A DNA stretch of 5,761 bases from Sedimenticola sp. (GTDB lineage Bacteria; Pseudomonadota; Gammaproteobacteria; Chromatiales; Chromatiaceae): NCBI GenBank assembly GCA_027038775.1, contig JALWGP010000015.1, positions 1-5,761 of the forward strand, written 5' to 3'. Below, in pieces: positions 1 through 5,761 of the stretch. The position numbers and the translations under genes were made by a program. Every line of letters begins with the position of its first letter. Within the stretch, counting starts at the first letter, position 1. The notes beneath the pieces were generated by a model. The model was not told where the DNA came from and did no database searches. It worked only from the letters and a program-made list of their open reading frames with translations.

Positions 1-1350
1 CTGGTCGTCCATGAGCGCCGGTTGGATGCCGAAGAAGGGCTTGCTGGCCGAGCCGGGCTTGAGGCCGTGGGCGCCGGGCAGGGGGGTGATCATGTGGCCG
101 CCGGTCTCGGTCTGCCACCAGGTGTCCACGATGGGGCAGCGGCCGTCGCCCACCACGTGGTAGTACCACTCCCAGGCCTCGGGGTTGATGGGCTCGCCCA
201 CGGTGCCCAGCAGGCGCAGGGAGGCGCGGGAGGTTTTCTTCACCATTTCGTCGCCGCAGGCCATGAGGGCGCGGATGGCGGTGGGCGCGGTGTAGAAAAT
301 GTTCACCTGGTGCTTGTCCACCACCTGCCAGAAGCGCGAGGCGTCGGGATAGGTGGGAATACCCTCGAACATGAGGGAGATGGCGCCGTTGGCCAGGGGG
401 CCGTAGACGATGTAGGTGTGGCCGGTGACCCAGCCCACGTCGGCGGTGCACCAGTAGATGTCGCCCTCGTGGTAGTCGAAGGTGAGCTTGTGGGTAATGG
501 CGGCGTAGACCATGTAGCCGCCGGTGGTGTGCAGCACCCCCTTGGGTTTGCCGGTGGAGCCGGAGGTGTAGAGGATGAAGAGCGGATCCTCGGCGTCCAT
601 CTCCTCCGCAGGACAGTCGGCGGAGGCGCCTTCCATCGCCTCGTGGTACCAGACATCCCGGCCGTCGTTCCAGTCGATGGGATCGCCGCCGCGCCTGACC
701 ACCACGCAGGTGTGCACGTTGGGACAGCTCTGGAGGGCCTGGTCGGCGTTGGCCTTGAGCGGCACCTTCTTGCCGCCGCGGATGGACTGGTCGGCGGTGA
801 TCACCGTCTGGCAGTCGGAGTCGAGGATGCGGTCCTTGAGCGCGTCGGGGGAGAAGCCGCCGAAGACCACCGAGTGGATGGCGCCGATGCGGGCGCAGGC
901 GAGCATGGCCACCGCCGCCTCGGGGATCATCGGCATGTAGATGGCCACCCGGTCCCCCTTCTTCACGCCGCGGCTCTTGAGCACGTTGGCGAACCTGCAC
1001 ACCTCCTCGTGCAGTTCGCGGTAGGTGATGTGGCGGTCTTCCTCCGGGTCGTCGCCCTCCCAGATGATGGCGGTCTGGTCGCCGCGGGTCTCCAGGTGAC
1101 GGTCGAGGCAGTTGTAGCAGGCGTTGAGCTTGCCGTTCTCGAACCAGCGGATCCTGATCTCGTCCTTGTAGTCCCAGTCGAGGACGTTGTCCCACTTGCT
1201 GAACCAGGTGATGTACTTCCCGGCCTGCTCCGCCCAGAACCCCTCGGGGTCCTCCACGGAGCGCTTGTACATGGCTTCGTACTCTTCGGCGGTGACGTTG
1301 GCCTGGGCCGCGAAGGCTTCGGGAACGGGATAGAAGGCTTCTTCGGACAT
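1..1350 (-). CDS. acs: Acetyl-CoA synthetase, AMP-forming (N-terminal 450 residues; 3' end outside window)
   Basis: This cytoplasmic enzyme activates acetate with ATP to acetyl-AMP and then forms acetyl-CoA, AMP and PPi. The start MSEEAFYP is set by a GGGAG ribosome site 8 nt upstream. Visible motifs are the N-terminal ACAS region ([12 protein letters not shown], residues 49-60), the CoA-site RGGK (191-194), the ATP P-loop [11 protein letters not shown] (261-271), GWVTGH (306-311), GEPINP (385-390) and [10 protein letters not shown] (409-418). The residues that set the acetate pocket in Salmonella Acs (V310, T311, V386, W414) are all present here, shifted by two: V308, T309, V384 and W412. 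This supports acetate over longer acids. The family is about 650 aa, so roughly 200 residues, including the C-terminal lid and its regulatory acetylated lysine, lie beyond the edge. It is the last visible gene of a four-gene minus-strand run, 55 nt after the exonuclease. No frameshift is seen. Confidence 0.97.
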
Positions 1351-1358
1351 GTCGGGAT

Positions 1359-1363
1359 CTCCC
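1359..1363 (-). promoter_or_regulatory. Ribosome binding site of acs
   Basis: GGGAG on the minus strand lies 8 nt before the acs ATG. It fixes the start codon and follows an A-rich leader that looks unstructured. Confidence 0.75.
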
Positions 1364-1405
1364 TTGTTGGTTTTGTGGTCTTTGTATTGCACTCCCCGGA
1401 ACGGG

Positions 1406-2098
1406 TCAAGTGTGCAACAGGAAATTCTTCAGCGGCGGCGCCCTGCGTCCCCGGCTGTTGGCCGCCTGCACCAGGAAGAGCTCGGCGGTGGCGATGGCGT
1501 CGCACAGGGCATTGTGCGCCCGGTAGCGGGGCAGGCCGTACTTCTCCCTGAGATTGAACAGCCGCAGTTCACTGCCCTGGTAGGGCTGGTTCCTTCGCTC
1601 CAGTTGCCGTTTTGCCAGGTGCAGGGTGTCGATCACCGGGAACAGCGGGGCCATTCCATAGAGCCGGCGGCACGCTTCTCTCAGGAATCCGGTTTCCACC
1701 GCGGCGTGGTGGGCCAGCAGCACCTTGCCCGCCAGCTCCCGCAGCAGGTCGGTGATGACCGCGTCCAGCGGCCGCCCCCCCGCCACCTGGTCATCGGTGA
1801 GCTGGTGGATGGCCACGTTGTCGCCCGCGAGGGTGCGCGGGCTCCGGATCACCTGGTGGCGGGCGGTGCGCAGTTCCACCCGGCCGCGGACGACCTCCAC
1901 GTGACCCACGCTCAGCAGGTGGTCGCTGGCGGGATCCAGGCCGGTGGTCTCGAAGTCCACGGCCAGGATGGGAGCCCGGTCGATGGGGGTGTGCGGCGGG
2001 GGAAAGGCGGTGGAGAGGAAGTCGTGCAGGGGGCCGGAAGGTGCCTTGCGGGCCAGCCGCTCGCGCCGGGCATCCAGGCTGAAGGGATTGAACCGCAT
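1406..2098 (-). CDS. DEDDh-family 3'-5' exonuclease (DnaQ/PolC-epsilon-like)
   Basis: This 230-aa protein has a single RNase T/DnaQ exonuclease domain, expected to remove nucleotides from 3' ends of DNA or RNA in the cytoplasm. Motif I is VDFETTG (D48, E50). Motif II is [11 protein letters not shown] around residue 130, where the DnaQ aspartate is a glutamate (E135). Motif III is HNALCD (H195, D200). A basic N-terminal stretch (about residues 1-22, RRERLARK) precedes the domain. The ATG overlaps the stop of the upstream nucleotidyltransferase gene by one base (TGATG), so translation is probably coupled; only a weak GGA precedes it. The frame stays open far upstream, but that stretch is antisense-like shadow of the upstream gene. 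It is not the replicative epsilon subunit by context: it sits between a DUF294 protein and acs. Its substrate is unknown. Confidence 0.92.
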
Positions 2099-3948
2099 CA
2101 GATCCGGTCGGTCTGGTAGCGCAGCTCCAGGGTCGCCTGCATGGTCTGCACCACCTTGAAGGCGTCCTTGAGGTGCTCGCGCTCCAGTTTCGAGAGCTGG
2201 GCCGGCGCCATGAAGTTGTCGGGCGCCTCGCCGGCGGCGATCTGCCGCGCCTGGTGCTCCAGCCGCAGGCGGCTGATGAACTCGAAGGCGTCCTGCAGGT
2301 TGGCGGCGCCACCCTGGCTCAGCGACGGGGTGCCTGCGGCCGCCTGCAGCCGGTCCAGGGTGCTGGTCTCCGGCAGGCCCTCGGCCAGGGCGTAGATGCG
2401 GGCCATGTCGATGATGGGCACCAGGCCGGAGTGCTTCAGGTCCAGGGTGTCGTCGTGCTGGCCGTCGTGCACCAGCACAAAGTCGCGGAAGAAGCCCAGG
2501 GGCGGACGGTGGGTGAGGGCGTTGCGCGTCATGTGGCCGAGGAAGAGCTGGTTCTTGGGGGTTTGTTCCAGGATGCGACCGCGCAGGTTGCTCAGCAGCC
2601 GCCGGTCGCCGTGCACCACGCGCATGTCGAAAAAGATGCTGGAGAGCATGAGCGCCTTGGGTTCGGGCTGGTTGATCCAGCGGTCGAAGTAGTCCTGCCA
2701 CACCGTCTCGGTCTGGCGCCACTCGGGGTTGGAGGCCATGACGTTACCGGGGCAGTAGACAAAGCCGCAGGCGTTCAGCCCGTCGTTGACGAAGCGGGCC
2801 AGCGCCTCGAACCAGGCTTCGTGTTCGGGCTGCATCTCGTCGGAGACGATGAGGCCGTTGTCCTGGTCGGAGTGGCTGGTCTGCTCGCGCCGCGCCTGGG
2901 AGCCGGCGCAGATCCAGGCGTAGGGCACGGGCGGCGGGCCGATCTCCGCCTCCTTCAGCTCAATGAGGCGGACGGTGAGGGCGTCGGTGACAGCACTCAC
3001 CGCCTTGCCCACGTGTTCCTGGTCCGCTCCCATGTTCACCAGCTGCATCTGCAGGCGCGGCAGCATGCGGCTCGCCTCCACCAGCTCCTCCACCGACCCC
3101 GCCTTGCGGATGGTGCTGGTGAGATGCACCGTGCTCATCCCCTCCTGGCGCATGATGTCGGTGATGGTGAGGATGCCGCGCAGCTCCTGCTCGTCGAACA
3201 CGGGCAGGTGATGCACCTGCTTGCGGGTCATGGTGAGCAGGGCGTCGAAGAGGCTGTCCGTGGTGCGGGCGGAGATGATTCCGTGGGTCATGATCTCTTC
3301 CACCGGCGTCTCCAGCGGCAGGCCGGGCGCCACGCAGCGGGTGCGGATGTCGCGGTCGGTGAGAATGCCGGCGGGTTTCCCCTCCTCCATGAGCAGCAGG
3401 GAGGAGATGCCCTTCTCGGTCATCAGCCGGGCGGCGTCCTGGATGGAGATGCCGGGCGGGGCGGTGACCACGGGGCCCTTGCAGTAGTCGCCCGCGTAAC
3501 TGTGAAGCAGGCTCGACTGGCTCTGTTCCTGGATCCGGCTCACCGCCTCCTTGAGTCGCTGCGCCGCCGAGTGGCGGATGAAATGCAGCACCGAGGGGTC
3601 GCCGCTCACCAGCTCTGCGAGCTCTTTGCAGGGGATGCTATAGAGCAAGGTATCCTCGGTTGCCTTTACCGTGAATTCCGGCATCAGCTGGGCGGCGCAG
3701 AAGCTGGTGCAGACGTCGCCTTCCCCCAGCATGCCCATGAGGCTCTCCTTCGAATAGAGCGCGATGGCGCCACGGCGGATGATGTAGAGCCGGGAGATCT
3801 CCTCACCGTCGGGAGGCACCGGGTGTCCCCGGCGCACGTACTCGATGGAGAGGCGGCCGGCCAGGCGGGTCACCACCTCTTCCGGCAGGCGGTCGAAGGG
3901 GGGGATGGCGGCGACGAAGTCGCGGATCTCCTTGAGCTCGATTTCCAT
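2098..3948 (-). CDS. cNMP-binding-like / tandem CBS / DUF294 putative nucleotidyltransferase
   Basis: This 616-aa cytoplasmic multidomain protein has, in order, a cyclic-nucleotide-binding-like beta-roll (about 16-125), a CBS pair (about 157-270, with GILTDRD at 194-200 and GILTITD at 258-264), a GlnD-like nucleotidyltransferase domain (about 315-450) and the DUF294 C-terminal substrate-binding domain (to about 610). The transferase signature is intact: GSQARREQTSHSDQD, with G349/S350 and candidate metal ligands D361 and D363. The beta-roll lacks the Glu and Arg that contact cAMP in Crp-type pockets. I chose the ATG giving MEIELKEIRDF, 4 nt after the upstream stop. A GTG at 3999 would add 17 residues, but these only overlap the upstream gene and have no ribosome site. 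No clear Shine-Dalgarno precedes the ATG either, which fits coupling to the gene before it. CBS domains usually sense adenylates, so a role in adjusting acetate metabolism to energy state is plausible but inferred. Confidence 0.96.
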   Translation of the reverse strand: MEIELKEIRDFVAAIPPFDRLPEEVVTRLAGRLSIEYVRRGHPVPPDGEEISRLYIIRRGAIALYSKESLMGMLGEGDVCTSFCAAQLMPEFTVKATEDTLLYSIPCKELAELVSGDPSVLHFIRHSAAQRLKEAVSRIQEQSQSSLLHSYAGDYCKGPVVTAPPGISIQDAARLMTEKGISSLLLMEEGKPAGILTDRDIRTRCVAPGLPLETPVEEIMTHGIISARTTDSLFDALLTMTRKQVHHLPVFDEQELRGILTITDIMRQEGMSTVHLTSTIRKAGSVEELVEASRMLPRLQMQLVNMGADQEHVGKAVSAVTDALTVRLIELKEAEIGPPPVPYAWICAGSQARREQTSHSDQDNGLIVSDEMQPEHEAWFEALARFVNDGLNACGFVYCPGNVMASNPEWRQTETVWQDYFDRWINQPEPKALMLSSIFFDMRVVHGDRRLLSNLRGRILEQTPKNQLFLGHMTRNALTHRPPLGFFRDFVLVHDGQHDDTLDLKHSGLVPIIDMARIYALAEGLPETSTLDRLQAAAGTPSLSQGGAANLQDAFEFISRLRLEHQARQIAAGEAPDNFMAPAQLSKLEREHLKDAFKVVQTMQATLELRYQTDRI

Positions 3949-3952
3949 GGGG

Positions 3953-4420
3953 TCAGGGTTTGCGGGTGGTGATTTCGGCAAAGTAGCGGTGTTCTCCACG
4001 AACCAGCGCCAGGCGGATCCTCTCCCCCTCGGCCAGGGGGTAGGGCAGCTCCGCCTTCCAGCGCTTGCTGCTGCCGCGGGTGGTCATTCGGATGGGGGGG
4101 GCCTTCTCCCTGGCCACCAGCACCCCGTCCACGGGCACGCTGGTGCTCAGGTACACCAGGGTGGTGCTGCCTGGACCCGGCTCGGCGCCGATGTTGACGG
4201 CGATCTCCCGGTGGAGCAACTCGCACACCTCACCCAGCAGGCGGCACCGATCGTCTACGACCAGGGGTTTCGCGTTGTTCGCGCTCTCGGTGGATTCCGG
4301 CGTGGTGGAGAGCTCGAAGAGGTCGGCGATGATGTATCCCCCCACCATCAGCAGGGGCGCCACCACCAGGGCGATTTTCAGGTGCGGATTGGTGGCCGTG
4401 AATTTCCTGATCAGTCCCAT
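3953..4420 (-). CDS. Single-pass membrane-anchored protein of unknown function
   Basis: I do not recognise the family of this 155-aa protein. A short basic N-terminus (MGLIRKF) is followed by one hydrophobic segment (about 17-36, IALVVAPLLMVGGYIIADLF), then a Ser/Thr/Asn-rich linker and a soluble domain of about 100 residues. By the positive-inside rule the domain should face the periplasm. It has two cysteines six residues apart (C59, C66) that could form a disulfide there, and a beta-rich tail ending HRYFAEITTRKP. The start was chosen because AAGG lies 8 nt before this ATG; a GTG 69 nt further upstream would add a proline/glycine-rich stretch without a ribosome site. It is the first gene of the minus-strand run and ends 4 nt before the DUF294 gene, so it is probably co-transcribed with the acetate genes. 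Coding is supported by the ribosome site, the membrane segment and tight spacing. Confidence 0.77.
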   Translation of the reverse strand: MGLIRKFTATNPHLKIALVVAPLLMVGGYIIADLFELSTTPESTESANNAKPLVVDDRCRLLGEVCELLHREIAVNIGAEPGPGSTTLVYLSTSVPVDGVLVAREKAPPIRMTTRGSSKRWKAELPYPLAEGERIRLALVRGEHRYFAEITTRKP

Positions 4421-4528
4421 CTGCCGTACCTTGTTGCCGGGGCCGGGGGGGCGGAAAGCGTGACCGCCGTGACAGGGCAAGCCTACCACGAATGCGCCTC
4501 TTTTTCCGTCGTGCGGGGTGGTTGCGCA

Positions 4529-4542
4529 CTGACCTGGATCAA
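4529..4542 (-). promoter_or_regulatory. Candidate FNR/Anr-like binding box
   Basis: On the minus strand this reads TTGATCCAGGTCAG, against the FNR/Anr consensus TTGAT-N4-ATCAA. The left half is perfect and the right half matches 3 of 5. Its centre lies about 70-71 nt before the transcription start predicted from the TATACT hexamer, near the -71.5 position used by class I FNR-type activators. It could instead serve the leftward acetate operon. No footprint or regulon evidence is available from the sequence alone. Confidence 0.4.
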
Positions 4543-4637: not shown

Positions 4638-4982
4638 ATGAAATGGGCGAAAGCGATTTTCCTTGGGCTGCTGCTCCCGGTACTGCCGGTGGCCGCCGGT
4701 TCGTCGAATCCCGGCCAGGATGCGCTGGTGGAGATGGGCCGGCTCAATGGCGTCGCGCTGGCCTGCCGCTACTACGAGCAGACCCGGCGCATCAAGCAGG
4801 CGCTCATCGACAACCTGCCCAAGCGCAGGGAACTGGGGCAGCTCTTCGATGATCGAACCAACGAGTCGTTCATGGCCTTCGTGAACTCCGGCGAGCCCTG
4901 TCCCTCGCCGGCGGAGTTCGAGGCGGGTGTGGAGAGAGCCATCCGCTGGATCGAACAGGCGTTCGAAGGACAGTCGCTTTGA
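4638..4982 (+). CDS. Small secreted (periplasmic) protein of unknown function with two cysteines
   Basis: This 114-aa precursor begins with a clear Sec signal peptide (MKWAK, then AIFLGLLLPVLPVAA) with likely cleavage after A20 (V18-A-A). The mature part, about 94 residues, appears mostly helical and charged, and has exactly two cysteines (C43 in ALACRYYEQ, C88 in GEPCPSPAEF) that could form one disulfide in the periplasm. There is no lipobox and no metal-binding His cluster. I do not recognise a named family. It lies 40 nt before the ZnuA-like gene in the same direction, with no terminator between, so the two are probably co-transcribed and may work together. The start is supported by the ribosome site and the fit of the signal peptide. 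Confidence 0.8.
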   Translation: MKWAKAIFLGLLLPVLPVAAGSSNPGQDALVEMGRLNGVALACRYYEQTRRIKQALIDNLPKRRELGQLFDDRTNESFMAFVNSGEPCPSPAEFEAGVERAIRWIEQAFEGQSL

Positions 4983-5022: not shown

Positions 5023-5761
5023 ATGAAAAACCGGTTGTTCCAACTGCTTCCGTTGCTGGTGCTGCTTCTTTCTTCCACGGTATTCGCCGCCGGCAGCGGC
5101 GAGTTTCGCGTGGTGGTCAGCATCAAGCCGGTCCACTCGCTGCTCAGCGCCCTCCTGCAGGGGGTGACGGAGCCGGAGCTCGTCGTGGGGCCCGGCAGGA
5201 CCCCTTACGGCTACCGGATGACGGAGGCGCAGGAGAAGGCGCTGCAGCAGGCCGACCTGGTGGTCTGGGTGGGGCCGGAACTGGAGCGCTTCCTGGTGGA
5301 GCCGGTACGCGGGCTGCCCAAGGGCGTCGAGGTGCTCACGCTGCTCGACAGCGATGCCATGAAGATCCTGCCGTCGCGCTGGGACGACGTCAGCCGGGAC
5401 CCCTATTTCTGGCTCGACAGCCGCAACGTGCTCATTCTCATCGACGAGCTCACCCGCTACCTCATGGAGCGGGATCCGGCGCGCACCCACCTCTACCGGC
5501 GCAACCGCGACCGCCTCTTCGAGAAGGTGGCCGAGCTCGACCGCAGGCTCGAGTACGGCTACCGGGGACTCAAGGGTGGGGTGATCCTCAACTACTACGA
5601 TACCCTCCAGTATTTCGAACAGGCCTACGCGCTGAAGGTGGGCGGCACCATCGCCCGCGACCCGGAATCGCCGGTGGATGCGGCGCGGCTGCTGCGCGAG
5701 CGCGCCCGGCTGTTGGAGGGCGGCTACGCCTGCGTGCTCACCGAGGCAGGCATGAAGATGC
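5023..5761 (+). CDS. ZnuA/TroA-family (cluster A-I) substrate-binding protein lacking the canonical zinc histidines (3' end outside window)
   Basis: 246 residues are visible. A signal peptide (MKNRLFQLLPLLVLLLSSTVFA, likely cleaved after A22) places it in the periplasm. Family motifs are clear: VVVSIKPVHSLLSALLQGV (30-48), ALQQADLVVWVGPELERFL, DPYFWLDSRN (126-135), LNYYDTLQYFEQAYAL (189-204) and CVLTE (237-241). Zinc-binding ZnuA proteins have SPHDY, DPHFWLD or a close variant, and FHDAYQYFE at the three corresponding sites. Here these read TPYGY (Y62), DPYFWLD (Y128) and YYDTLQYFE (Y192), so each histidine is a tyrosine. The His-rich loop between the first two sites in many ZnuA proteins is absent. 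The frame is intact and codon use matches the neighbours, so this is not simple decay. It may bind another ligand, perhaps a metal through phenolates, or serve a non-transport role. No ABC permease or ATPase gene is visible. The family call is firm, the ligand unknown. Confidence 0.93.
   Translation, partial: MKNRLFQLLPLLVLLLSSTVFAAGSGEFRVVVSIKPVHSLLSALLQGVTEPELVVGPGRTPYGYRMTEAQEKALQQADLVVWVGPELERFLVEPVRGLPKGVEVLTLLDSDAMKILPSRWDDVSRDPYFWLDSRNVLILIDELTRYLMERDPARTHLYRRNRDRLFEKVAELDRRLEYGYRGLKGGVILNYYDTLQYFEQAYALKVGGTIARDPESPVDAARLLRERARLLEGGYACVLTEAGMKM

Follow-up and report, generated by a model that had tools for sequence, protein, structure and literature searches.

A ZnuA-fold protein lacking its zinc-ligand histidines, and the fusion of its relatives to an SCO1 copper chaperone linked in part of the family to nitrous oxide reductase

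This study concerns a gene that runs off the end of a 5761-base stretch of DNA from Sedimenticola sp. (contig JALWGP010000015.1 of GenBank assembly GCA_027038775.1), hereafter the window. The gene encodes a protein of the ZnuA/TroA fold in which the three histidines that form the zinc site of ZnuA are all tyrosines. In relatives of this protein, the same fold is joined in one frame to an SCO1/SenC copper chaperone with an invariant SCO motif, a small gene lies directly upstream, and part of the family is linked to nosZ or other nos genes. We favour, with reasonable though far from complete confidence, the reading that the window gene likely encodes part of an SCO chaperone bearing a metal-free ZnuA-fold module, a protein that would serve the assembly of the CuA centre of clade II NosZ, the nitrous oxide (N2O) reductase exported by the Sec pathway. 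The main feature, the chaperone fusion with its nos linkage, lies outside the window. A preliminary description made from the window alone could not have revealed that the contig end truncates the gene, nor that YYY is just one among many triplets of the family.

The window gene and its three ligand positions

The window is the entire contig C15 of a fragmented assembly (440 contigs). The open reading frame of interest is intact and stays open up to the last base, encoding 246 residues; because the window is the whole contig and the frame runs off its end, the gene is truncated. Membership of the ZnuA/TroA fold is supported by the Pfam score of the window protein and by the fold match of its closest full-length relative. 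The relevant features are as follows.

5023..5761, plus strand: ZnuA-fold protein, N-terminal 246 residues (Pfam PF01297, 99.7 bits); C-terminal side cut by the contig end.
5206..5208, plus strand: codon of Tyr62, first ZnuA histidine-ligand position by alignment to solved ZnuA; Y, F, H, L, W, Q, G or T in relatives.
5404..5406, plus strand: codon of Tyr128, second histidine-ligand position by alignment to 2xh8; F, Y, H or L in relatives.
5596..5598, plus strand: codon of Tyr192, third histidine-ligand position by alignment to solved ZnuA; Y, F, H, L or Q in relatives.

Ligand positions were assigned by alignment to the solved ZnuA structures of Salmonella, Escherichia coli and Citrobacter. 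Y62 falls on the histidine of 'EHDY' and Y192 on that of 'FHDAYGY', while Y128 falls on the histidine of 'MHLW', a site spanned by one alignment only (2xh8). The three-histidine ligand set of cluster A-I binding proteins is absent from the window protein, and the presence of tyrosine at all three positions in an intact frame, as first proposed in the preliminary description, is confirmed.

That description also took the substitutions to suggest selection and not decay, which agrees with the mean column identity of 54% over 51 full-length or nearly full-length relatives. A decaying ZnuA pseudogene or an assembly artefact might be suspected from a gene cut by a contig end in so fragmented a genome, but orthologues that are full-length and free of stops occur in many genomes, including assemblies of few contigs (G007, 3 contigs; G017, 2). 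We regard this explanation as scarcely credible, and decay is rejected on the strength of the conservation across relatives.

The tyrosines themselves are another matter. In a first set of 86 rows, reduced to 73 by de-duplication and containing one unfused ZnuA (L021), the residue triplets were YYY in 10 rows, YFY in 8, FFF in 6, YFF in 6 and HHH in 6 (L021 included), besides others. A larger set of 193 rows, in which 120 database proteins were added and duplicates are present, has YYY in 39 of 192 rows and HHH in 11 of 192; all three residues are Y, F or W in 133 of 192, none is histidine in 144 of 192, and at least one is phenylalanine in 123 of 192. On a tree built without the three ligand columns, the sites require a minimum of 17, 17 and 20 changes. 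The three former ligand positions have thus turned mostly aromatic, and on these alignments the tyrosines are no conserved ligand set, the sites switching among Y, F, H and other residues. The preliminary description had named random variation of the tyrosines among homologues as evidence against its reading; this is partly what is seen, the residues changing, though for the most part among Y, F and H.

Because phenylalanine is unable to coordinate metal, the tyrosine hydroxyl is not what selection keeps. The preliminary description had suggested that the tyrosines bind ferric iron or another metal, and had pointed to the adjacent Y191 and Y192 as in FbpA-type ferric-binding proteins, in which a Tyr-Tyr ligand pair is conserved. 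Here Y191 is indeed conserved (187 of 193 rows), but Y192 is kept in 110 of 193 only, and the pair as such is not conserved. Although the window protein has tyrosine at all three ligand positions, a metal site formed by them is highly improbable, given the many switches on the tree; the ferric-iron version is rejected, since tyrosine is freely replaced by phenylalanine and histidine. The option that the site binds no metal, raised in the same place, may well be correct.

Fusion members with HHH form a single clade (SH-aLRT, the Shimodaira-Hasegawa-like approximate likelihood ratio test, support 100%), represented by L078, L080, L082, L085 and L086 and nested within a Thiodiazotropha group of YYY, YYH, YYF, YFF and HFY members. 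This nesting among aromatic members reads as a regain of all three histidines, which is likely for this one clade, the tree having been built quickly and its outgroup branches being long. Other positions are specific to the family: Y178, G179, Y180, Q200 and A201 are near-invariant in it and absent from six ordinary outgroup proteins. R125, R134 and E177 occur in outgroups too and are hence not family-specific.

Fusion to SCO1 and a small upstream gene

Relatives were found at 68 loci of named genome records, and matches at E 0.001, a figure that includes ordinary ZnuA, in 40 of 55 related genomes; the family is present in Thiolapillus, Sedimenticola and Thiodiazotropha clam symbionts. Most close relatives are single frames of about 460-620 residues from stop to stop, and Pfam finds, in the two relatives analysed, ZnuA followed by SCO1/SenC in one frame (PF01297 and PF02630). 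A profile built from the 51 relatives, with a threshold of E 1e-40, retrieved 623 proteins at that value or better, and the best 120 of the 623 all have both domains. Database names among these 120 are 'SCO family protein', 'metal ABC transporter solute-binding protein, Zn/Mn family' (ABC, ATP-binding cassette), or both together; the two halves are therefore already annotated, and we found no description of their combination in the part of the literature listings covered by our search. The CxxxC motif and the distal histidine of the SCO domain are invariant (188/188, 188/188 and 187/187 rows with letters at these positions, of 193). At two loci no SCO match was obtained: at L019, where only the end of the solute-binding part matched, there was none within 3.7 kb of DNA, and at L092 the contig stops soon after the frame.

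The C-terminal half of the window gene was not found in its own assembly, where the search returned only a stand-alone SCO gene beside PCuAC and a marginal SCO match at C25. For this reason the fusion status of the window gene is inferred from relatives. Complete fusions exist in genomes of the same genus, and by this comparison the window gene probably encodes the first half of such a ZnuA-SCO1 protein.

With the ZnuB of the window's own genome as query, no match was obtained at any of 67 family loci, and zinc uptake with a nearby partner is rejected as a function on that ground. The ZnuC query gave 15 matches in 14 of the 67 loci at 29-35% identity, some of which are the nos ABC gene and others (e.g. 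L094 7428-8273) unclassified. These counts rest on the loci of relatives, the window contig stopping inside the gene. The znuC/znuB-like genes of the window's genome adjoin a different ZnuA. That other protein (L001:935-1798, contig C60) has alanine at the first histidine-ligand position, giving the triplet AHH, and L026 is alike in this respect.

Compared with ZnuA, TroA and AztC of cluster A-I (PF01297), the present family thus has its three histidine ligands replaced, mostly by Y or F, has no ZnuB match at its loci, and in relatives is fused to SCO1. Compared with SCO1, SenC, PrrC and ScoI (PF02630), it has a ZnuA-fold module added at the N-terminus, is accompanied by a small gene for a helical partner, and is in part linked to nos genes. 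The partner gene and a possible regulatory site before it lie within the window.

4638..4982, plus strand: small protein of 114 residues, 40 bases upstream of the ZnuA-fold gene on the same strand; signal-like N-terminus (by eye); predicted four-helix.
4529..4542, plus strand: tentative, weak FNR/DNR-like box CTGACCTGGATCAA that matches the consensus at 8 of 10 positions and precedes the small gene by 95 bp.

By tblastn, 66 of 67 family loci match the small gene within 700 bp upstream, the lone miss (L089) beginning at a contig edge. C43 and C88 of the small protein are invariant in 42 sequences. An AlphaFold model has four helices (predicted local distance difference test, pLDDT, 87.9); the protein has no Pfam match, and its best fold match in the PDB, at E 2.7, is not convincing, although the protein may have a known fold.

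We surveyed 210 genomes of the order, of which 75 have the fusion (76 rows minus G222, an SCO-only match); the 75 include G000 and G006 (ZnuA part only, at a contig end), G002 (later part only) and G121 (broken frame). The small protein is present in 83 of the 210 genomes, including 74 of the 75 with the fusion, and the lone exception, G002, starts inside the fusion gene. Nine genomes contain the small protein but gave no sign of a fusion, and each of the nine matches NosZ at E 1e-60; two of these (G028, G130) have the small gene at a contig end, so that the fusion may be cut off there. G222 (L155:7030-7884) encodes a 285-residue protein that joins the small domain straight to SCO and has no ZnuA part, and in G150 and G149, of another genus, the reading frame of the small protein is followed by an overlapping frame that contains the SCO domain. 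Because some genomes that carry NosZ have the small protein and SCO but no ZnuA part, these two look like the core unit, and the ZnuA fold like an added module.

FNR-like boxes scoring at least 9 of 10 positions against the consensus occur in 11 of 46 upstream regions, compared with 0.81 expected from shuffles, but 34 of 269 further genes at these loci reach that score as well. The box is kept tentative since these other genes score too; its conservation in part of the family is suggestive.

Association with nitrous oxide reductase

At a Thiodiazotropha locus, the gene downstream of the fusion encodes a Sec-dependent NosZ (TIGR04246, 876.6 bits). Nos genes were sought at the family loci by similarity to the genes of L057 and L084, and one or more were found at 28 of 67: nosZ at 22, and at six others three to six nosD/nosF/nosG/nosH/nosL/nosY-like genes. 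Gene names at L084 come from NCBIfam (NosD, NapG/NapH-like) and Pfam (NosD, NosL; NosL PF05573), while nosF and nosY are names given here from position and from ABC ATPase and ABC-2 permease matches.

Of the 75 surveyed genomes that carry the fusion, 62 have Sec-type NosZ scoring over the curated cut-off, vs 28 of the other 135 (p 9.7e-19). At E 1e-60, a threshold that also lets in weaker, probably clade I, and fragmentary NosZ, the corresponding figures are 64 of 75 and 41 of 135 (p 8.6e-15). A hand count per genus from the tables gives 16/18 vs 14/43 (p 6e-5). Because the genomes are related, these p-values overstate independence and serve as guides only. The fusion has nosZ within 2.5 kb in 31 genomes, and for 30 of these nosZ is on the same strand and downstream, 301-877 bp away as measured. 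The genetic linkage that a maturation factor of N2O reductase should display is therefore found in part of the family. In the window's own genome, NosZ is encoded on contig C224, where its neighbours are cytochrome c-like and NosD-like genes.

Menaquinone-type genes (menA/menE/ubiE-like, named by similarity) adjoin the pair of small gene and fusion at L053, L055, L058 and L062, and a gene of L057 has a menA-like family match. The rest of the window carries the following.

Within 1-4489, minus strand: acetyl-CoA synthetase-like gene, cut; read from the sequence, with no family search.
Within 1-4489, minus strand: DnaQ-like exonuclease gene.
Within 1-4489, minus strand: CBS/DUF294 protein gene.
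Within 1-4489, minus strand: gene for a 178-residue protein, with no family match.

A candidate role in CuA assembly

N2O reductase is the known biological sink of a strong greenhouse gas, and we are aware of no account of copper insertion into the CuA centre of its Sec-exported (clade II) form. We propose that, in the periplasm, the SCO domain would reduce and/or load CuA of the NosZ exported by Sec. The ZnuA-fold domain has lost its zinc site and has no zinc permease gene beside it; it would likely serve, without metal, to dock or position either the client or the small helical partner. More tentatively, and with somewhat less than even confidence, the family may represent a new two-protein CuA maturase for Sec-exported clade II NosZ, composed of a four-helix periplasmic partner and an SCO1 chaperone that has captured a metal-stripped zinc receptor as a docking clam-shell. 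One Thiodiazotropha lineage would then have rebuilt the three histidines, and perhaps become metal-responsive again.

The assembly of CuA in NosZ is thought to be similar to that of oxidases, and in Paracoccus deletion of senC2, encoding an SCO protein, or of pcuC, encoding PCuAC, lowers N2O reduction at low copper, according to passages of PMC7558416. SenC2 and PCuAC of Paracoccus denitrificans thus resemble the present case in that loss of an SCO protein lowers N2O reduction when copper is low; in those passages, however, the account concerns Tat-exported NosZ and has no ZnuA-fold module (PMC7558416). NosL, the copper chaperone of the nos cluster, shares a copper chaperone role at nos but differs in that it serves CuZ, as stated in a passage of PMC6530538. 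Its gene adjoins the fusion at six loci, from which it follows that the fusion does not replace NosL. In Bacillus azotoformans a senC gene is near nos genes (passage of PMC3475470). No ZnuA-fold module is described in these passages of PMC7558416, PMC6530538 and PMC3475470.

Several observations count against a role at NosZ. In the window's own clade (L033-L043) the fetched flanks yielded no nos gene; the nos link there is co-occurrence, not adjacency. Two genomes of the window's genus, G009 (99% complete) and G014, have NosZ, and the fusion was not detected in them; Sec-type NosZ without the fusion in 28 genomes means that the fusion is not required everywhere. Conversely, 11 of the 75 fusion genomes have no NosZ match at E 1e-60, and among these G003, G020 and G175 are at least 90% complete, G003 having NosZ fragments; it should also be kept in mind that G000 and G006 show only the ZnuA part and that the frame of G121 is broken. 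In G020, which has no NosZ, the small gene and fusion (L149:8531-11172) adjoin a nosY-like gene, and the locus is possibly a remnant of a lost nos cluster. The same locus is also near two similar unannotated 268-residue reading frames.

The missing adjacency in the window's clade would fit a fusion that serves another copper enzyme, for instance by acting on CuA of cytochrome c oxidase or by general periplasmic copper/thiol handling, and whose nearness to nos elsewhere reflects no more than the clustering of denitrification genes. Oxidases are known to have SCO proteins as CuA assembly factors (passages of PMC7558416), and the fusion correlates with COX2 too, more weakly than with NosZ (43/75 vs 31/135, p 1e-6). 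At E 1e-15, however, the 15 genomes of the window's genus gave no COX2 match, while 13 of them have the fusion gene (G000 and G006 the ZnuA part only); in the subset of genomes negative for COX2 the association of the fusion with NosZ at E 1e-60 persists (27/32 vs 30/104), and the window genome has a separate PCuAC and SCO pair. We therefore judge service to another copper enzyme unlikely. It also seems rather doubtful that the ZnuA-fold domain is still a receptor, with a new pocket lined by aromatics and a ligand such as a copper chelate, an anion or an organic cofactor that is passed to SCO. The near-invariant residues specific to the family, and the re-appearance of the HHH triplet as one nested clade, as though the site were re-usable, are consistent with a receptor, but the absence of ZnuB-like permease matches at the 67 loci argues against it.

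With CuA assembly of clade II NosZ as the preferred role, the family provides a candidate open to direct testing, an SCO chaperone linked to nos that carries a repurposed metal-receptor domain and is accompanied by an unknown partner protein. It is also an example of a binding protein that has lost its metal site yet kept its fold, and in which, in one clade, the three ligands were seemingly regained.
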